A DNA stretch of 64,000 nt from Nostoc sp. NMS9 (GTDB lineage: Bacteria; Cyanobacteriota; Cyanobacteriia; Cyanobacteriales; Nostocaceae), in contig NZ_JABXKL010000026.1 of NCBI RefSeq assembly GCF_017114995.1, positions 1 through 64,000 on the forward strand. Reading direction: 5' to 3'. The notes beneath the pieces are model-generated. The model was not told the origin of the DNA. It was given only the letters and a program-made list of their open reading frames with translations, and searched no databases. This document shows positions 32,466 through 42,204 of this stretch, one piece after another. A program made the translations under genes and the position numbers. Numbering within the stretch: the stretch's first letter is position 1; every line of letters starts with the position of its first letter.

Positions 32466-32594
32466 GTAGCGAATAACTCAAATGGCAGAGCACCCACTTT
32501 GCTTGGAAAGGCCCACGTATCGAGGGTTATCGCATATAACTAAAACACCCTTGATAAACTTCTGGAGGTGTAGGTAAAAATCCTACTTCGTTAC
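32466..32594 (+). ncRNA. tRNA-like Y RNA unit 1 (diverged)
   Basis: An 8-bp acceptor stem GTAGCGAA/TTCGTTAC closes the unit. A D-arm-like ACTC...GAGC follows at canonical spacing. The T-arm position has a 5-bp stem (GTAGG/CCTAC) but the loop TAAAAAT lacks the usual TTC. In place of the anticodon arm is GCTT-GGAA-AGGC (a GNRA-type tetraloop hairpin) and CGAGGGTTATCG. The 5' strand ATCCTTGTTC that pairs in the other units is missing, so this copy may be degenerate. Confidence 0.55.
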
Positions 32595-32626
32595 AGCAAA
32601 TTTAATGCTGAGTTTTGAATTTATAT

Positions 32627-32752
32627 GTGGTGGGTAGCTCAGTGGATAGAGCGCCTAAATATCCTTATTCACACCTTGCCTGAAAAGGTCGACGAATTGA
32701 GGGTTATCGCCTGCCAAGCGGGAGGTCGCGGGTTCAATTCCCGCTCCACTAC
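32627..32752 (+). ncRNA. tRNA-like Y RNA unit 2
   Basis: Acceptor stem GTGGTGGG/TCCACTAC (8 pairs, two G-U), D arm AGCTCAGTGGATAGAGC, T arm GCGGG-TTCAATT-CCCGC. Between D and T arms lies the Y core: ATCCTTATTC pairs with GAATT-GAGGGTTAT, enclosing the hairpin GCCT-GAAA-AGGT. No anticodon arm exists, so it cannot be a decoding tRNA. Relative to its sisters, a G-to-A change in the 5' strand (TTG to TTA) keeps pairing with the opposing U. ACCA follows the acceptor stem. Confidence 0.8.
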
Positions 32753-32768
32753 ACCAAATCTAGTGCTA

Positions 32769-32795
32769 AAATTTTGAATTTTGAATTTTGAATTT
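32769..32795. repeat. TTTTGAA heptamer array between Y RNA units
   Basis: Three to four tandem TTTTGAA copies fill the spacer between units 2 and 3, and single remnants occur between other units. The units share a TTTTCAT-like 5' flank, suggesting they arose by duplication with their spacer. Confidence 0.75.
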
Positions 32796-32799
32796 TCAT

Positions 32800-32922
32800 G
32801 TGGCGGGTAGCTCAGAGGTAGAGCGCTAAACATCCTTGTTCACCCCTTGCCTGCAAAGGCCGACGAATTAGGGTTATCGATTAGGGTTCGAGAGGTCGCA
32901 GGTTCAAGTCCTGCTCCGCCAC
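32800..32922 (+). ncRNA. tRNA-like Y RNA unit 3
   Basis: Acceptor stem GTGGCGGG/TCCGCCAC (8 pairs), D arm AGCTCAGAGGTAGAGC, T arm GCAGG-TTCAAGT-CCTGC. The Y core has ATCCTTGTTC pairing with GAATTAGGGTTAT and the hairpin GCCT-GCAA-AGGC. A short CTAA/TTAG helix connects the core to the tRNA-like body. All parts look intact; this is the cleanest copy together with unit 5. Confidence 0.85.
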
Positions 32923-32947
32923 CCAAAACTTAATTTTGAATTGTCAT

Positions 32948-33105
32948 CTGGTGGGTAGCTCAATCTGGCAGAGCAATGAACGGGTTAATTCCCATAGTCC
33001 TTAGTTCACAAACTTGCCTGCAAAGGCCGACGAATCGAGGGTTATCGTTAATTCATCGGTTGCAGGTACCCTACGGGAAGCAAGCTACAAATCCTGTTCC
33101 ACCAG
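32948..33105 (+). ncRNA. tRNA-like Y RNA unit 4, T loop interrupted by a 19-nt insert
   Basis: Acceptor stem CTGGTGGG/TCCACCAG, D arm AGCTCAATCTGGCAGAGC, hairpin GCCT-GCAA-AGGC and the core CGAATCGAGGGTTATCG. The connecting helix is longer than in its sisters (ATGAA..TTAA with TTAATTCAT). The T stem GCAGG/CCTGT encloses a 26-nt loop. Removing 33067-33085, which is flanked by a TAC direct repeat, restores a normal 7-nt loop TACAAAT. At 158 nt it is the longest unit. Confidence 0.8.
33067..33085. repeat. 19-nt small insert in the T loop of Y RNA unit 4
   Basis: TACCCTACGGGAAGCAAGC followed by TAC: the TAC at both ends looks like a target duplication. The insert has CCTACGGG and AAGCAAGC, reminiscent of Nostoc small dispersed repeats that are known to sit inside structured RNAs. 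Its removal regenerates a canonical-size T loop. Confidence 0.65.
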
Positions 33106-33132
33106 AGTAAATTTTGCGTTTTTAATTTTCAT

Positions 33133-33259
33133 GTGGCAGATAGCTCAGTTGGTAGAGCGCCGAAAAACATCCTTGTTCACACCTTGCCTGAGAAGGCCGA
33201 CGAATTAGGGTTATCGCCTCTTAAGCCGGATGTCGCAGGTTCGATTCCTGCTCTGCCAC
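33133..33259 (+). ncRNA. tRNA-like Y RNA unit 5
   Basis: Perfect 8-bp acceptor stem GTGGCAGA/TCTGCCAC, canonical D arm AGCTCAGTTGGTAGAGC and T arm GCAGG-TTCGATT-CCTGC. The Y core keeps ATCCTTGTTC with GAATTAGGGTTAT and the hairpin GCCT-GAGA-AGGC. It ends 37 bp before the Ro60 start codon, so RNA and protein genes are probably in one transcript that is cut at the tRNA-like ends. Confidence 0.85.
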
Positions 33260-33270
33260 CTTTCATTTTT

Positions 33271-33282
33271 GCCCGCAAGGGC
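33271..33282 (+). promoter_or_regulatory. GNRA hairpin next to the Ro60 ribosome binding site
   Basis: GCCC-GCAA-GGGC forms a 4-bp hairpin with a GCAA tetraloop, ending one base before the GGGAG ribosome site (33284-33288) of the Ro60 gene. It mimics the hairpin of the upstream Y RNAs and could influence Ro60 translation. Confidence 0.4.
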
Positions 33283-33296
33283 CGGGAGATGAAGCG

Positions 33297-34898
33297 ATGA
33301 ATTACAATTTTTTCACTAAAAAGAAAACAACTACACCTCAAAATCAACCTATCCCCGGACGAGAAGCAGAAATGGTTCAGGGACGTTCCGGCGGCTGGAT
33401 GTTTGATGCTGGTATTTGGAAAATGCTGCGCCGTTGTTTGTTGGTTGGCACAGCAAAAAGCACTTACTACGCTGGTAAACAGGAATTAACTGAGGATTTT
33501 GTGACAGTTGTCAGACAAGCTGTTGCCGAAAATCCTGGCCGTGTAGCAGAAGAAATTTTGTATGCTAGCGATGGACGCGCCATCAATAACAGTGCGCCTA
33601 TCTTGGCTTTGGTATTGCTCTCTATGGGTGAAGCACCAGAAGCAAAACAGGCGTTTGGTGAAATATTTCCGCAAGTTGTCCGCACTGGTAGCCACTTCTA
33701 CGAATGGCTGAACTACACCAAATCTCTGCGGGGATTTGGCAAAGTAGTCCGGGAAGCTGGTAAAACTTGGCTCTCAAGGGAAGATGTCAAGGGTTTAGCT
33801 TATCAACTGTTGAAATATCAACAGCGTCAAGGCTTCTCCCACCGAGATGCGTTGCGGTTGTTCCATGTCAAACCGCCTACAGAAAATCACCGTCAACTAT
33901 TTGAGTGGGTAGTTAGAGGCTGGGAAGAATTGCCAGCAGATATCCCCTCAGAAGCATTGGCGCAGATTTGGTGGTATGAGTGGCTGAAGCGGAATCCAAC
34001 CCAAACCCATGAAGCTATTTCCCAAGGACGCTTAACCCACGAAATGGCTGCACCAGTGGGCAAAATGGATCAGCTTGCTTGGCAGCTGCTATTTCAGGAA
34101 ATGCCAATAGGTGCAATGTTGCGTAACTTGGGTTCTTTAACTGAACTGGGTGTGTTGCGAACAGATGAAAGTGCCAACTTGCTGCGAGTGGAAGCAGTTC
34201 TTAACAACAAGGAACATCTGCGTAAAGGTCGCATCCATCCAATTGATGTTTTGAAAGCACTCAAAACTTATAAATCTGGTGGAACATTAGGACGCAGTAA
34301 GAAAACTTGGAACCCAGTTCCTCGGATTGTAGACATATTAGAAAAGGCGGTTGAGCTGTCTTTTGATGTTGTGCAACCCACTGGTAAAGTGTTCATGCAC
34401 GCCGTAGACGTTTCTGGTTCTATGGGTAGTATGGTTGCAGATATGGGACTGACTTGCTGTGAAATTGCCACTACAATGGCACTGGTAACAGCAAAAGCAG
34501 AGAAAAACTACATGATTCGTGGTTTTGCTACCGAATTCTGGGAATTAAGTATCACTGCCAAAGATAGTTTTAGTTCTGCGGTTCGCAAAGCTAGCAATCA
34601 AAATTTCGGTGGAACGGATGCGTCTGTAGCTTATGACTGGATGATTAAGAATAAGTTTAAAGCAGATGTAGTCTGCTTTTGGACTGACTCGGAAAGTTGG
34701 GCTGGGTATAAGCATCCAAGTCAAGCGCTGAAGGAGTACCGCAAAAAGGTAAATCCTAACGTCAAGGCGGTGTATGTCACCTTGACACCTTACCAGATTA
34801 CTTTGGTAGATCCTGAAGATTCGCTGTCTTGGGATTTGGCAGGGTTTGACCCAGGTACGCCTCGGATCATCCAGATGCTAGCTACGGGTGAATTGTAG
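33297..34898 (+). CDS. rsr: Ro60/TROVE-domain RNA-binding protein (Rsr orthologue)
   Basis: A 533-residue Ro60 orthologue. Residues 1-355 form the TROVE domain, a ring of HEAT-like helices that binds misfolded RNA ends in its hole and Y RNA on its outer face (GGWMFDAGIWKMLRRCLLVG, then VGTAKSTYYAGKQELTEDF). Residues about 365-530 are a VWA domain with an intact MIDAS, Asp371-x-Ser373-x-Ser375 in AVDVSGSMGS. In Deinococcus and Salmonella, Ro60 works with Y RNA and PNPase in RNA maturation and decay. Here five Y-like RNAs are directly upstream and one is 48 bp downstream. The ATG is preceded by GGGAG at 8 bases. Confidence 0.95.
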   Translation: MNYNFFTKKKTTTPQNQPIPGREAEMVQGRSGGWMFDAGIWKMLRRCLLVGTAKSTYYAGKQELTEDFVTVVRQAVAENPGRVAEEILYASDGRAINNSAPILALVLLSMGEAPEAKQAFGEIFPQVVRTGSHFYEWLNYTKSLRGFGKVVREAGKTWLSREDVKGLAYQLLKYQQRQGFSHRDALRLFHVKPPTENHRQLFEWVVRGWEELPADIPSEALAQIWWYEWLKRNPTQTHEAISQGRLTHEMAAPVGKMDQLAWQLLFQEMPIGAMLRNLGSLTELGVLRTDESANLLRVEAVLNNKEHLRKGRIHPIDVLKALKTYKSGGTLGRSKKTWNPVPRIVDILEKAVELSFDVVQPTGKVFMHAVDVSGSMGSMVADMGLTCCEIATTMALVTAKAEKNYMIRGFATEFWELSITAKDSFSSAVRKASNQNFGGTDASVAYDWMIKNKFKADVVCFWTDSESWAGYKHPSQALKEYRKKVNPNVKAVYVTLTPYQITLVDPEDSLSWDLAGFDPGTPRIIQMLATGEL

Positions 34899-34946
34899 AT
34901 ATTGCTGAAGGGTAAAGGATGAAACACTTTATCCTTCATGCTTCAT

Positions 34947-35054
34947 GGCGGGTTATCCTTGTTCGCAACTTGCCTTTCGGGGCCGAAGAATTTAGGGTTA
35001 TCGGTTACGTCTCCACCATTGTGGGGATTAGCGGGTTCAATCCCCGCACCCGCC
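34947..35054 (+). ncRNA. tRNA-like Y RNA unit 6, without D arm, downstream of Ro60
   Basis: Acceptor stem GGCGGGT/ACCCGCC (7 perfect pairs) and T arm GCGGG-TTCAATC-CCCGC, but no D arm: the acceptor strand runs straight into ATCCTTGTTC. The core GAATTTAGGGTTAT is kept. The hairpin is GCCT-TTCG-GGGC, so a UUCG tetraloop replaces GNRA while the stem pairs are kept. An extra 7-bp hairpin (TCTCCAC/GTGGGGA) precedes the T arm. A T-rich stretch follows (TTTATTTTT), a possible end. Confidence 0.8.
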
Positions 35055-35139
35055 TTTATTTTTGATTCAAATACAGCCCAAGGGAATGGAATTCGCAGGT
35101 TAACAGGTGAACGCATATTTTTTAGAACTAGCTAGACAT

Positions 35140-37884
35140 TCAAGAAAGACGCTGAATGGCATCATTAGCTTGATTGACATACTTATCTATACCCATTGAT
35201 TTAAACAAAGCACTTGCTTTTTGGTAAGCATTGACTGCTTCTGATTTTTCACCGAGTTCAACAAATAAATTTCCTAAGTTATATAAAGCTCGCGCAGCAC
35301 CAATATCACGACCTGTTTGCTCTGACACTTTCAAAGATTCTTTACAGTATTTCAATGCCTGCATATGCAAGAGTTTTCCTAAAAACAAATAAGAATTACT
35401 CAAGTTTAATAAACAATCTGCTTGTAGTTCTGGTTCACCAATTTCCTTTGCTATATCCAAAGATTGCTGAATCAACTCAATAGCTTTTTCAGGCTGATTT
35501 AGTTGATTGTAAACAACACCTAGACTTCCTAAAGCTCTAGCCTCCATAGGCTTATCTCTCATAGATTGAGCAATTTCTAATTGGCGACTATGGCAATCAA
35601 GAACTTTTTGATATTCTCCTAATGCACAGTATGCACCACCTAAATTACCAAGTGTACTAGCCTCTCTTTCAAGATCACCATTGTTTTGTAAGATTTTTAC
35701 TTTTTGTTCTTGGTAATCAATTGCTTCAGAGTATTTTCCTAATGCATAACATACAATGCCTAGATTATTTAATGCATTAGCTTGTTCTTCAGAATCCCCT
35801 ATTATATTTGCAATTTCTAGTTGCTGCTGATGACAATATATAGATTGTTGATAATTCCCTATATCCTGGTAAACAAGACCTAAGTTATTCAATGCAGCAG
35901 CTTCACCTTGTTTATTGCTGATTTCCCTTTCTATCAGTAAAGCTTTTTGAAGAATATTAATTGCTTTTTGGTACTGCCCCATCCGTGTATATATACTGCC
36001 TAAATCAATCATTATTGCTGCCAAACTTAATCGATTTTCTTCATTAGATTCCCAAGCAAATACTAAATTTTCATAAAGTTCCATTTGGATAGAATAATAA
36101 CCTTGTGAATCTAAAAAACCTTTGCATAGACGGAGTGTATCAAAGGCGATTACATACTTTTTCTGTTGGCATAGATGATATATAACTTCTAAGTGAGGCA
36201 TTACATCTTCAAGTTTTTGCCATTCCTCTCCAATTTTTGCTATTGAAGCATAATAAGTAATGATTCTATCTCTCAGTGAATCTTGCTGATTGCCTATCTT
36301 TTGTCTAGCATAATGTAAAACAAAAGGATGAAACTGAAACTGTTGTTCTTCATTGATTACATCCAGTAGAGAACGGCTAGTTAATTCATTTATTGCTTGT
36401 TGTGTTTGCCAATAGTTATTCGGATCTTCTAAATCTTGGGAATTTAAATTTGTCAATACCATGCCCCAAGTGCTAATTTTAACTACATCAAAGCCTTTTA
36501 GTGAGCTTATTTCATCATCACTTAGGGAACCTTGACTAAGCCTATCGTTCAAGATTAACTTTGAAGTTAGTTGATTATTATTCAAAACTACTGTTGCAGC
36601 ATCTTGATTAAATGAACTACGGTAGAGACTAAGACTGAGGAAAAAACATTTTAAATCAGAAGCTAAATTCTCAAAATGTTGCTCTAAAATCCAAACAAAA
36701 AATATCCGTTCTCTATCCCGATAAGGCATAGGTACTTTATTTAAAAGTAAATCAAGTTGTCTAAATCCTATTTTTTCTGCTTCTTTAATGTGATTACCTG
36801 ATTTTAACTTTGATGCCACTAGCCGCAACATCTTGGGGTGTCCGTTGAGATATTTGGAGAAATCTTGAAGTTCCTCATCAGATCCAACAATTCCAAATCT
36901 TTGAAGTAGCCGTGCTCCATTAATTGCTTCTAATCCTTGCAACGGTAGCCAATAGCCATGCCCTTCCATGACTTCAGGTTGAGTTTGGGTTGTCAGTAGC
37001 AATTTACTACCTACTCCATTTTCAATCCAGCGAATAAAAAAGTCTTTATAAATTCCTATAAAATGCCGATCTTGATCTAGTAGGGTTTCTAAGTTATCGA
37101 TTACTAGCAAACATGGGCGCTTTTTTAAAGTGTCTAGCAAAGCAAAAATTAGTTGTTCTGGTTCCCGCAATGCTGCTAACTGTTCTGGAGATGTCCCAGC
37201 CAGTTTCATCAGAGCATTTTGGGCAAATACTGTGAAATCAGTACCTTGTCTGACATCAGCCCAAAACTTTGCCTCGAAATCAGTAGATTCAAACATATAT
37301 GAAGCCAGCCAAGATTTGCCAACTCCACTAAGTCCCTGAATTCCAAGAGTTTTAACTTTAGTATCTACTAACCATGTTTGCAGTTCTTTAATTTCTGCGT
37401 TGCGTCCTTGCCAGTTATCTAGTGTTGGTGGTATTGAAATTAGGTTAGCCGAAGAAATCGGCTTCTGCTCCTGCTGTTGCATTCCCTGGAGAATTCTTAG
37501 AAGTTCAGCAAGATGATTTTCTGGAATAGAATTTGCGATCGCATCCTCACGCCCCACGAAATCAGGATTTTCAGATATCGTTTTATCTTCACTGAAATTT
37601 TCAGTTTGTGGTAAGTCTGAAGTATTTTGATTTAATAACTCAGGCTTGTACTTGGCAAATAAAGAAATCAATTCTGGAAGCTTTGAACGGCGTTCGTCTG
37701 AAAATTCATTATTTAAGCCAAATAACTTACAAATTTCCTCACGATGTTTTCTGACAGTTGATTTCTGAATATGCAAAGAATTAGCGATCGCTTCATCTGT
37801 TTCGTTAGCCAGTAGTTTCAGCAGCACCTCTCGCCGCCTTTCAGTTAAGCGATTAAATACTGCATTGAAATGTTGTTGATTCAT
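35140..37884 (-). CDS. STAND ATPase: HTH, NB-ARC and TPR repeats
   Basis: A signal-transducing ATPase of about 914 residues from the preferred ATG (MNQQHFNAVFNRLTERRREV); the open frame extends 21 codons further. The N-terminus is a LuxR-like helix-turn-helix (LLANETDEAIANSLHIQKST). The NB-ARC module has LGIQGLSGVGKSWLASYMF (Walker A), CLLVIDNLETLL (Walker B) and KLLLTTQTQ (sensor). The C-terminal third has at least six TPRs (AAALNNLGLVYQDIGNYQQ type) as ligand sensor. Such proteins oligomerise on sensing a trigger; here the output is probably transcription or HTH-mediated binding. It is convergent with Ro60 and divergent from the nuclease gene. Confidence 0.88.
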   Translation of the reverse strand: MNQQHFNAVFNRLTERRREVLLKLLANETDEAIANSLHIQKSTVRKHREEICKLFGLNNEFSDERRSKLPELISLFAKYKPELLNQNTSDLPQTENFSEDKTISENPDFVGREDAIANSIPENHLAELLRILQGMQQQEQKPISSANLISIPPTLDNWQGRNAEIKELQTWLVDTKVKTLGIQGLSGVGKSWLASYMFESTDFEAKFWADVRQGTDFTVFAQNALMKLAGTSPEQLAALREPEQLIFALLDTLKKRPCLLVIDNLETLLDQDRHFIGIYKDFFIRWIENGVGSKLLLTTQTQPEVMEGHGYWLPLQGLEAINGARLLQRFGIVGSDEELQDFSKYLNGHPKMLRLVASKLKSGNHIKEAEKIGFRQLDLLLNKVPMPYRDRERIFFVWILEQHFENLASDLKCFFLSLSLYRSSFNQDAATVVLNNNQLTSKLILNDRLSQGSLSDDEISSLKGFDVVKISTWGMVLTNLNSQDLEDPNNYWQTQQAINELTSRSLLDVINEEQQFQFHPFVLHYARQKIGNQQDSLRDRIITYYASIAKIGEEWQKLEDVMPHLEVIYHLCQQKKYVIAFDTLRLCKGFLDSQGYYSIQMELYENLVFAWESNEENRLSLAAIMIDLGSIYTRMGQYQKAINILQKALLIEREISNKQGEAAALNNLGLVYQDIGNYQQSIYCHQQQLEIANIIGDSEEQANALNNLGIVCYALGKYSEAIDYQEQKVKILQNNGDLEREASTLGNLGGAYCALGEYQKVLDCHSRQLEIAQSMRDKPMEARALGSLGVVYNQLNQPEKAIELIQQSLDIAKEIGEPELQADCLLNLSNSYLFLGKLLHMQALKYCKESLKVSEQTGRDIGAARALYNLGNLFVELGEKSEAVNAYQKASALFKSMGIDKYVNQANDAIQRLS

Positions 37885-38014
37885 AACTATTAGCGCATCA
37901 CAATCACAGTACACATCTGTGTACTCGATATAGTTACAAAGACTCACAGCATGTGTATTACTTGTGTACTAGGCTAACGCAAAAGTTGATGTAGTAATTC
38001 ACGACTTACAACTT

Positions 38015-39850: not shown

Positions 39851-39882
39851 CATTCAACAACAAAACTAATAGGGTGATATTT

Positions 39883-42204
39883 ATGTCAGATCAGTCAGAG
39901 GGTGGGAATCTGTCTAAAGCTTGGTATCAAAAGGTTTTACAGGATTGGGATATAGATCGTTTACTGACTGATTTGGAGTCTAAAATTCAACAGCGATACA
40001 GGCAAAATTCTAAGAAAGACCTGTTACTTGGGTTGCTATGTGGGTATAGCTTGACAAAGATAAGTCAGGACTTGTACAGAGATAACGCTGGTGTGAGAGT
40101 GGGATTGAGCAATATCTATCGAGATATTGAAACTTTGACAGGAGAACCCGATAACAGCGTCAGATCAAGCAACCTTATTTACATTCTTGAGATACATGGA
40201 TATCGCAGAGGTGTTGCTGCATCTAGTACCGAAAGCACCTCTATTCCCCATAATCTGCCATCACCAACCTACACAGAATTTATTGGGCGCGAGGCAGATA
40301 TGAAAAAGCTACTGGAACGGCTTTTGCCGATGCATGGCGCTCACATGATTACAGTGCATGGCATTGGTGGCGTAGGGAAAACGGCGCTGGTGTTAGCAGC
40401 TGCTTACCTGTGCTTAGAAGCTAGTAACGAAAATAGTTCTGATGCACCTAAATTTGATGCAATTATTTTCACTTCAGCCAAACAACAGGAACTGATTCCC
40501 GATATGATTTTGCAACGGCAGCAAGGACAGCGTAACCTGCGCGAGATTTTTCGGGTGATTGCCAATGCCTTAAACGACTCTACAATTATTCAATCTCCTC
40601 CCAATGACCAATTTGAGCGTGTACGCCAATGTCTTTCTAAACAGCGAACGCTTCTGATTGTGGATAATATGGAGACTATAGAGGACAGGGATGAGGTTAT
40701 AGAATTCTTATACAATTTACCCATTTGCGTCAAAGTAGTAATTACTACCCGCGAACGAATTGCCCTACTGCCAATCAGTCTGCGAAACTTGCCCCTGAAT
40801 GATGGTTTGCAGTTGATTCAGCAACAAGCTGAAGAAAAAGGTATAACTATCCAAGATGAAGACTCTAGCTTGCTCTACGATCGCACTGGGGGAATCCCTC
40901 TCGCTATTGTCTATGCACTCGGTCAAGTATCCAGTGGCTACTCTTTGAACTTTGTATTGGAGCAGTTAGCCTCCGCTACAGGCGATGTGGCTCGTTTTTG
41001 CTTTGAGCAATCAGTGCAAGGTACGAAGGGACAGCCACCACACAAGTTACTCATGTCACTGGCGATTTTTCCTGACGCTCCTATCCAAGCTGCTGTGGCT
41101 GAAGTTGCTGGACTGACATCTGCTCCTGATTCTGTCAGTAATGGCTTGGTACGTTTGCAGCAACTCTCGTTAGTGAATCTGAATCCAGAGACTAAGCGAT
41201 ACGAGATGCTCTCTCTGACTCGTGAGTATGCCTTAGCACAATTAGCTGCTTACCCAGATTTTGAGAAAGAAGCACGGATGCGTTGGGTGAGATGGTATCT
41301 AGATTTTGCTTACAGTTACGGCGGAGAAGATTGGGAAAAATGGATACATTACAACAGGTTAAAGGAAGAGGAGGGAAATCTACGGGCAGTACTTTATTGG
41401 TGTAAAAACCAAGACCATTATGCGGAAGTTAGGGATTTGTGGTTGCTCTTGAACCACTACGCCAATCTCTATGCTTATTGGGACGATCGCCTCGATTGGT
41501 TGCAATGGCTGATAGAACAATCAGAACGACGTGGTGAATGGTCATCTTTAGTAAAATTCATGATCCGCAAAACCTGGCTGCTAATTCGGGAGTGTTCACC
41601 CCAAAGTCTCACACAAGCAGACGAAATATTGCAGCGGGCATGGGTTTTACGCGACCATGCAGATTCATGCGTTCAAGCTGACTTAGCCGAAAATATGGCT
41701 AGACTGCGAATCAGACAGAATAATTATACAGATGCACGCCACTGGCTAATGGTAGAAGAAAAATTGGTGATTGAGGCGAATCTAGACGAGCGAAAGCACA
41801 TCCGCTATTTTATTCCTGTTCTTTATCATCGGGCTGAAATCTTTTATTCAGAAGGTGAATATTTTTTAACCAAGAAGCTATTTCAAGATGTGATGAAAAG
41901 TGCAGAAAAAATTAATTGGCATCGGGTGATTAATTCTGCTCAAAATTGGCTTGCTGATATTGCCATCGAACAAGGCGATCGCGATGAAGCTCAAAAGCTA
42001 TTAATTAAAGGCTTAACTGTCGCCGAAAGTAGCAATAATAAACGGCGTCTAGCTCGTTATCAACGTTCTCTAGCCCGCTGGGAGAGAAGGTGGGGAAGTG
42101 TCCAGAAAGCTTGCCAATTGTCAACTCAGGCTATTAATGGTTTTGAGCAATTGGGAATGACAAGGGATGCACAGGAGATGCAAACTTTACTTGATTGCCC
42201 ATAA
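39883..42204 (+). CDS. STAND ATPase with N-terminal HTH-like domain and NB-ARC
   Basis: I use the ATG at 39883 because an AGGG ribosome site lies 8 bases upstream; the open frame begins three codons earlier at GTG. Residues about 20-105 (LGLLCGYSLTKISQDLYRDN) match the HTH domain common at the start of cyanobacterial NB-ARC proteins linked to VWA/MoxR systems. NB-ARC motifs: VHGIGGVGKTALVLAAAYLC, LLIVDNMETIEDRD, VVITTRERIAL and GIPLAIVYALGQ. Residues about 450-773 are helical TPR-like repeats. Upstream dyads may be its own operators. Confidence 0.88.
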   Translation: MSDQSEGGNLSKAWYQKVLQDWDIDRLLTDLESKIQQRYRQNSKKDLLLGLLCGYSLTKISQDLYRDNAGVRVGLSNIYRDIETLTGEPDNSVRSSNLIYILEIHGYRRGVAASSTESTSIPHNLPSPTYTEFIGREADMKKLLERLLPMHGAHMITVHGIGGVGKTALVLAAAYLCLEASNENSSDAPKFDAIIFTSAKQQELIPDMILQRQQGQRNLREIFRVIANALNDSTIIQSPPNDQFERVRQCLSKQRTLLIVDNMETIEDRDEVIEFLYNLPICVKVVITTRERIALLPISLRNLPLNDGLQLIQQQAEEKGITIQDEDSSLLYDRTGGIPLAIVYALGQVSSGYSLNFVLEQLASATGDVARFCFEQSVQGTKGQPPHKLLMSLAIFPDAPIQAAVAEVAGLTSAPDSVSNGLVRLQQLSLVNLNPETKRYEMLSLTREYALAQLAAYPDFEKEARMRWVRWYLDFAYSYGGEDWEKWIHYNRLKEEEGNLRAVLYWCKNQDHYAEVRDLWLLLNHYANLYAYWDDRLDWLQWLIEQSERRGEWSSLVKFMIRKTWLLIRECSPQSLTQADEILQRAWVLRDHADSCVQADLAENMARLRIRQNNYTDARHWLMVEEKLVIEANLDERKHIRYFIPVLYHRAEIFYSEGEYFLTKKLFQDVMKSAEKINWHRVINSAQNWLADIAIEQGDRDEAQKLLIKGLTVAESSNNKRRLARYQRSLARWERRWGSVQKACQLSTQAINGFEQLGMTRDAQEMQTLLDCP

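Follow-up and report, generated by a model that had tools for sequence, protein, structure and literature searches.

A stretch of 64,000 nucleotides (nt) from Nostoc sp. NMS9 (contig NZ_JABXKL010000026.1, positions 1 to 64,000; hereafter 'the window') contains a Ro60 gene surrounded by six tRNA-like units, u1 to u6. Judged by their fold, Ro60-type motif, linkage to Ro60, tRNA order and fast-changing anticodon loops, all of them read from the sequence, these units are very probably tRNA-shaped Y RNAs. The reading that we favour, with a probability of about 0.5, goes further: the units would be non-permuted tRNA-shaped Y RNAs, loaded on Ro60 and presenting tRNA surfaces to enzymes that act on tRNAs, most likely as baits or sensors. 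The first-pass annotation of this DNA had noted neither the non-permuted order relative to the bacterial Y RNA family YrlA nor the variable anticodons. A full anticodon loop, with a triplet that changes faster on average than the spacer and tRNA-specific positions that are fixed or rule-bound, points to recognition by tRNA enzymes and makes it testable what the tRNA-like part of a bacterial Y RNA is for.

The gene (33297 to 34898, plus strand) encodes a Ro60 orthologue of 533 amino acids with TROVE and vWA_Ro60 domains, identified by Pfam (vWA_Ro60 3.8e-38, TROVE 7.1e-18) and by a structure match, the nearest solved structure being Rsr of D. radiodurans (2nvo, 3.9e-74). Residues K170, R174 and H187, which we take to be the Y RNA contacts of Xenopus Ro60, have identical counterparts at the aligned sites, counted by hand. 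The closest Ro60 locus among the relatives listed, that of Nostoc sp. LPT, is 99% identical. The first-pass annotation had placed five units upstream and one downstream of a TROVE gene, and Pfam together with R1, a covariance model made from relatives, recovered this arrangement at 32466-35054. R1 gave 139.9 bits for u5, 136.4 for u3 and 130.3 for u2, which match by construction since the model was built partly from them; u4 (49.8 bits), u6 (47.6) and u1 (30.7) had not been used. The best score in the window outside the six units was 12.8 bits. Over the whole genome, where scoring covered 150 of the 1770 candidates from a first look and weak units may escape, the matches beyond the six units were ordinary tRNAs with a top score of 44.8 bits; weak matches were therefore counted only with the core present.

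All six units lie on the plus strand. Unit u2 (32627 to 32756) consists of an 8-bp acceptor, a D arm, a split anticodon stem and a T arm, followed by encoded ACCA. The 5' strand of its anticodon stem carries an inserted Ro60-type hairpin of 52 nt (32657 to 32708) ending in GGGTTATC, and the anticodon hairpin GC-CTGCCAA-GC follows (32709 to 32719, anticodon GCC). Unit u3 (32800 to 32925) has the same layout, with a 50-nt inserted hairpin (32829 to 32878), the anticodon hairpin GA-TTAGGGT-TC (32879 to 32889, anticodon AGG) and C73 (32922) before CCA. Unit u5, the last before Ro60 (33133 to 33259), repeats this layout up to the T arm, 8-bp acceptor included, and encodes no CCA; its insert of 53 nt (33163 to 33215) precedes the anticodon hairpin GC-CTCTTAA-GC (33216 to 33226, anticodon CUU). 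In u4 (32948 to 33105) the Ro60 hairpin replaces the loop of the anticodon stem ATGAA/TTCAT, and the T arm (33062-33097) has a loop interrupted by an extra stretch. At this T-loop site, two units of a relative (L040, 4630-4788 and 4818-4967) also carry extra letters, which differ from those of u4; a dispersed repeat was considered for the u4 stretch and not shown, an exact 18-mer from it occurring once in the genome. Unit u6 (34947 to 35054) has a 7-bp acceptor, the Ro60 hairpin, a T arm and no D arm, and is followed by TTTATTTTTG; a long hairpin lies at 35010-35027. The limits of u6 were set by acceptor pairing, the R1 match itself being given as 34885-35055. Unit u1 (32466 to 32594) keeps tRNA-like acceptor, D and T arms, with a rearranged core and no recognisable anticodon loop. 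Its Ro60 motif reads GGCCCA in place of GGCCGA, and the motif is intact in a near relative (L003); u1 is probably impaired.

Most of what the first-pass annotation had described in these units was found again: acceptor stems and T arms in all six (with the interrupted T loop of u4), and D arms in five (that of u1 being imperfect). The shared core that it quoted is present in this exact form in u3 and u5 and as variants in the others, the motif of u1 being altered. Its statement that no unit has an anticodon arm did not hold: a 7-nt loop on a split stem is present in u2, u3 and u5, and a stem lacking such a loop in u4, while no arm was identified in u1 and u6.

The fold was then assessed on units from the window and from Ro60 loci of relatives, the best 80 of the 168 found in a scan. 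Among 216 core matches, 164 had an acceptor and a T arm and 163 of these a TTAT[CT] anchor; a D arm was present in 145 of the anchored units, and 98 were assigned to 'type A' by pairing and variable-loop length. These counts leave out unparsed matches and cover part of the 324 R1 matches, and a few of the 145 units are evidently mis-parsed (L020 6629, L067 6549). In 99 of the 145, the anticodon stem has its two inner pairs and two or more of its outer ones, so that the hairpin-split arm shows its loop in most parsed units.

In the split-stem form, the insert follows nucleotide 29 of the anticodon stem, measures 50-53 nt in the window and has the almost invariant end noted for u2. It reads UUGCC-loop-GGC(C)GA with a single bulged C, which we take to be the layout of the Ro60-binding stem of Y RNAs; the vertebrate consensus is presumably GGYC-C-GA opposite UUGRCC, also with a bulged C. 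An alignment of 30 diverse split-stem units had 98.6% of cells paired over the 35 proposed pairs, which comprise the 8-bp acceptor, the D, T and split anticodon stems and the inserted hairpin. Changes on both sides were found in 19 of the 35 pairs, compared with a shuffled mean of 8.7 (0 of 500 shuffles reached 19) and 0-8 in slid versions. RNAalifold, supplied with no structure, also recovered the small anticodon hairpin. The helix of the Ro60 motif was paired in 100% of cells of the 30 units. The Ro60 stem (helices 4 and 5) varies little, so that compensatory changes within it are few (both-side change in 1 of 14 pairs); this predicted stem is backed by conservation and by the motif.

At the Rfam gathering threshold no family was reported in the window. 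The covariance search that the first-pass annotation had proposed for bacterial Y RNAs stayed below the cut-off, the best YrlA (RF02553) score being 37.7 bits for a cut-off of 69. This match (32868-33007) straddles neighbours, taking the second half of u3 and the first half of u4, and the YrlA model likewise spans adjacent units in four of the six sources searched (L082, L054, L072 and L158). Where the 5' arms of neighbours differ (65 neighbour pairs), the 3' arm of a unit is complementary to the 5' arm of that unit at 126 of 133 positions, and to the 5' arm of the next unit at 42 of 133, a contrast inflated by the fact that own acceptor pairing of at least 6/7 was a detection condition. We take the units to be tRNA-ordered, because their own acceptor arms pair far more often than arms of neighbours do, and YrlA to be their circular permutation. 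On this reading there are two circularly permuted forms of tRNA-like Y RNA, and a change of register within a tandem array could convert one into the other. ARAGORN called no tRNA in the window and none in the 145 intact parsed units, while the gap-tolerant tRNA model of Rfam reached its cut-off in some relatives (7 of the 7 tRNA rows listed, 32.5-52 bits). No tmRNA was found in the window by ARAGORN, and the Rfam tmRNA model gave 23.1 bits for a cut-off of 47. Weak Rfam matches to Plastid-ycf2, tmRNA and permuted-tmRNA were taken as chance or tRNA-like resemblance.

Comparison of the locus in related genomes, a check proposed at the outset, supported the idea of Y-RNA-like RNAs that occur in several copies, are linked to Ro60 and contain a tRNA-like module. 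Units lie beside Ro60 in 78 of the 80 cyanobacterial loci, each with an R1 match of at least 62 bits; the two exceptions are L028 (23.5 bits) and L057 (no R1 match). The 324 R1 matches mentioned above are those at E<=0.01 in the 80 loci. Across 244 genomes of the phylum, R1 matched at E<=1e-10 in 23 and vWA_Ro60 in 27, all 23 being within the 27 (14 candidates were scored per genome, and weak units may escape). In 23 of the 23 genomes with units, Ro60 was on the same contig, about 3 kb or less away. A direct R1 search of the Ro60 regions (L150-L152, L154) of the four genomes with vWA_Ro60 and no R1 match at that threshold (G127, G018, G021 and G041) gave matches at tRNA level or lower only. 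A distant relative (G044, locus L149) has Ro60, a YrlA match of 38.4 bits, 25 ARAGORN tRNAs and an R1 unit of 62.2 bits with the loop CTCTTAA, read by eye.

Plasmid pAQ7 of the laboratory strain Picosynechococcus sp. PCC 7002 (L158) carries Ro60 and a smaller array of three units (2541-2947), one with anticodon GUU; Ro60 and the units sit between phosphonate transporter genes and siderophore genes. In viral contigs, a Ro60 protein search found none. The core DNA pattern selected six viral contigs, of which five were dropped and one (L169) has its own divergent Ro60 (32% identical) and one unit with an R1 score of 95.4 bits and the loop TTAGGGA. Ten Ro60 loci of phages in GenBank, picked from the rows listed of 344 records, had no R1 unit above the tRNA background; YrlA matched at E<=0.01 in seven of them (L160, L161, L174-L177 and L179). 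In Gordonia phage Cashline (L160), positions 2216-2355 gave 33.9 bits with R1, and two tandem YrlA-type units were seen by eye where Rfam reports one. As a separate observation, Ro60 genes repeatedly adjoin tRNA genes or arrays (L149 in G044, L152 in G127, L154 in G018, and phage loci L161, L175, L176, L177 and L178), and a Pistol ribozyme match of 56.8 bits lies among tRNAs near the Ro60 gene of L175 (4931-4987). Apart from the window, the Nostoc genome itself has a dense array with 25 Rfam tRNA matches, one below cut-off (C77:99783-102332), in which ARAGORN left some anticodons unresolved.

In type A units, the loop is made of the seven bases that follow GGGTTATC-NN. U33 and the G36-G37 relation described here played no part in their selection. 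U33 was found in 97 of the 98 units, mostly from related loci, and a purine at position 37 in 97 of 98. G37 was present in 35/35 units with G36 and in 0/63 without it (12/12 and 0/22 when distinct arms are counted); related units share descent, so these U33 and G36-G37 counts are not independent events. The 98 anticodons would be read as Pro (AGG 23, UGG 5, CGG 3), Gly (GCC 17, UCC 12), Asn (GUU 7), Met (CAU 7), Lys (UUU 6, CUU 5), Tyr (GUA 3), Ile (GAU 2), Cys (GCA 2), Leu (UAG 2) and, once each, Phe (AAA), Gln (UUG), His (GUG) and Glu (UUC). The commonest, AGG, is carried among others by u3-type units, by a distant host (L082) and by the viral contig L169. A search for the nearest own-genome tRNA of each unit gave no consistent parent.

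Rates of change were estimated on last units. Pairwise diversity among 45 of them was 0.69 at positions 34-36; it was lower in the 5' flank of 25 nt (0.404), the 3' flank (0.142), the D arm (0.088) and the hairpin (0.086). On a tree of the Ro60 gene with 43 leaves (L058 and L059 were dropped for want of a full Ro60 reading frame, and L054 is outside the last-unit set), parsimony gave 13.67 changes per site for the anticodon (14, 13 and 14), a mean of 9.56 for the 25-nt upstream spacer (columns 0-18), 2.12 for the 3' flank, 2.01 for the tRNA body, 1.21 for the Ro60 hairpin and 0 for U33. Part of the change is whole-unit replacement; among 20 units with one stem type the anticodon is still the most diverse part (0.375, compared with 0.316 for the 5' flank). 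Last-unit orthologues thus differ most at the anticodon, which sharpens the earlier proposal that one Ro60 may load different adaptors. Whether arrays avoid repeating an anticodon (1 equal pair in 53, shuffled mean 6.0) was dropped as a test, being confounded by orthologous unit types.

On the reading that we favour, each unit would fold as a tRNA, with a 7-8-bp acceptor, a T arm and, except in u6, a D arm. In u2, u3 and u5 the Ro60-type hairpin would interrupt the anticodon stem on its 5' strand; in u4 it would take the position of the anticodon loop. Enzymes of tRNA processing would release the ends, which is plausible because the acceptor arms co-vary and many units encode CCA. Ro60 would bind the inserted hairpin, and the complex would show an array of tRNA surfaces, varied anticodon loops included, to enzymes acting on tRNAs. 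As a more tentative suggestion, rated below an even chance, the units may serve to bait or sense RNases that cleave anticodons, whether these are toxins or nucleases of phages or of defence systems; such enzymes would bind or cut the look-alikes instead of, or as a signal for, the real tRNAs. Slightly more speculative is a Ro60-held bait array whose changing anticodons reflect arms-race diversification, with the same design in a Ro60-bearing virus. PMC10264068 proposes that altered anticodon loops let phage tRNAs escape anticodon nucleases. The tRNA module might also tether an exonuclease such as PNPase, as the Y RNA does in Deinococcus according to PMC8394870 and PMC8058203.

Several observations weigh against this reading. 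Units of the u4 and u6 types present no anticodon, 46 of the 145 parsed units depart from the split-stem form, and 39 of the 98 type A units have an A-G mismatch at 29-41; with u4-type units lacking an anticodon and 46 units off-form, anticodon display is not essential to every unit. AGG is absent from the 69 own-genome tRNAs called, so that plain copying of host tRNAs does not account for the units. In last units, changes are also frequent at positions 32 (7), 37 (8) and 38 (10), some single spacer columns exceed the anticodon in changes, and turnover or conversion of units makes the anticodon rate look higher than it is. The ARAGORN test with the insert removed is weak, as ARAGORN calls wrong junctions at least as often. 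Finally, in Salmonella, cutting of tRNAs was reportedly not accompanied by YrlA fragments (PMC7790460).

Ordinary RYPER-type adaptors, with a tRNA shape serving processing, stability and PNPase tethering and an anticodon that is a freely drifting loop, seem unlikely, though they stand ahead of the other alternatives. They would agree with the role of the Deinococcus Y RNA (PMC8394870 and PMC8058203), with the missing anticodon loop of u4- and u6-type units and with the PNPase gene of this genome, but drift alone leaves unexplained the fixed U33 and the G36-G37 rule, beside an anticodon that outpaces the spacer on average. It is improbable that some units are chargeable tRNA mimics, aminoacylated perhaps with alanine and acting like tmRNA or as synthetase sensors. 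CCA is encoded in 81 of the 145 parsed units as against 10 of 69 own tRNAs (4 of 44 outside one array, with a simple parser for both), and in the 8-bp class with CCA a G-U third acceptor pair with A before CCA is found in 42 of 57 units; the last-unit class without CCA has G-C as third pair in 49/49 and G-U in 0/49. G3-U70 is an identity element for alanine, and we regard the alanine-like resemblance of these acceptors as a lead, not a claim. The G-U units, however, stem from few orthologous positions and are not independent counts, 8-bp acceptors are atypical, CCA is missing from last units, and ARAGORN, the only tag search made, gave no tmRNA tag frame.

Excision of the hairpin from a tRNA with a removable insert, leaving a working tRNA, appears very improbable. 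ARAGORN does call a tRNA in 117 of the 145 units once the insert is left out and in 0/145 intact, but wrong junctions are called in up to 126 of 145. Moreover, the hairpin, at the 1.21 changes per site given above, is among the most conserved parts, the anticodon varies while the acceptor hardly changes, unit bodies fit no single isotype consistently, and u4 and u6 would give no tRNA. That the units are tRNA genes in decay next to an unrelated TROVE gene could account for the altered motif of u1 and the interrupted T loop of u4, but given compensatory changes and phylum-wide linkage to Ro60 this explanation is scarcely credible. Decayed tRNAs without a Ro60 core, the outcome that the first-pass annotation had set against its own proposal, are not what was found, impaired-looking u1 apart.

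As to the setting of the locus, a promoter scan found 4 candidates for a shuffled mean of 4.4, that is, no enrichment, and a terminator scan found 5 for a mean of 3.3, little enrichment. Two large reading frames lie downstream, one on the minus strand (35140-37947) with matches of LuxR type and to TPR, plus one to NB-ARC below cut-off, the other on the plus strand (39874-42204). The 8.1 Mb genome has, besides its PNPase gene, two RtcB genes.

Among known systems, vertebrate Y RNAs share with the units what we take to be the Ro60 stem motif with its bulged C, but have no tRNA module, and their stem is open where that of the units is closed. Like tRNAs, the units show cloverleaf order, U8, a T loop, U33, R37 and in some cases encoded CCA; they differ by the 50-53-nt hairpin inside the anticodon stem. 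Phage and bacterial tRNA arrays resemble the locus in their tandem tRNA-like genes and altered anticodon loops, but are regarded as working tRNAs, whereas the anticodon stem of the units is interrupted. No earlier description of the units was met with in the literature as far as it was accessible, and priority is not settled. The nearest relative is YrlA (RF02553), which also has a T arm, a D arm and an acceptor-like helix, a Ro60 stem replacing the anticodon arm, and a gene adjoining Ro60. Its consensus, unlike the split-stem units, shows no anticodon loop, and its Rfam model closes the acceptor-like helix into a hairpin, whereas the units combine open acceptor ends with a closed Ro60 hairpin. 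The large Ro60-binding stem of YrlA is made by the RNA ends, according to PMC8394870. The units have the T, D and acceptor-like arms of YrlA (u6 without D) and, by their sequence, appear to lack the end-formed stem; they share with Y RNAs at large the Ro60 stem motif (altered in u1) and a gene beside Ro60. The family label therefore needs qualifying: the units are best called a variant of the bacterial tRNA-like Y RNAs that departs from YrlA in two features.

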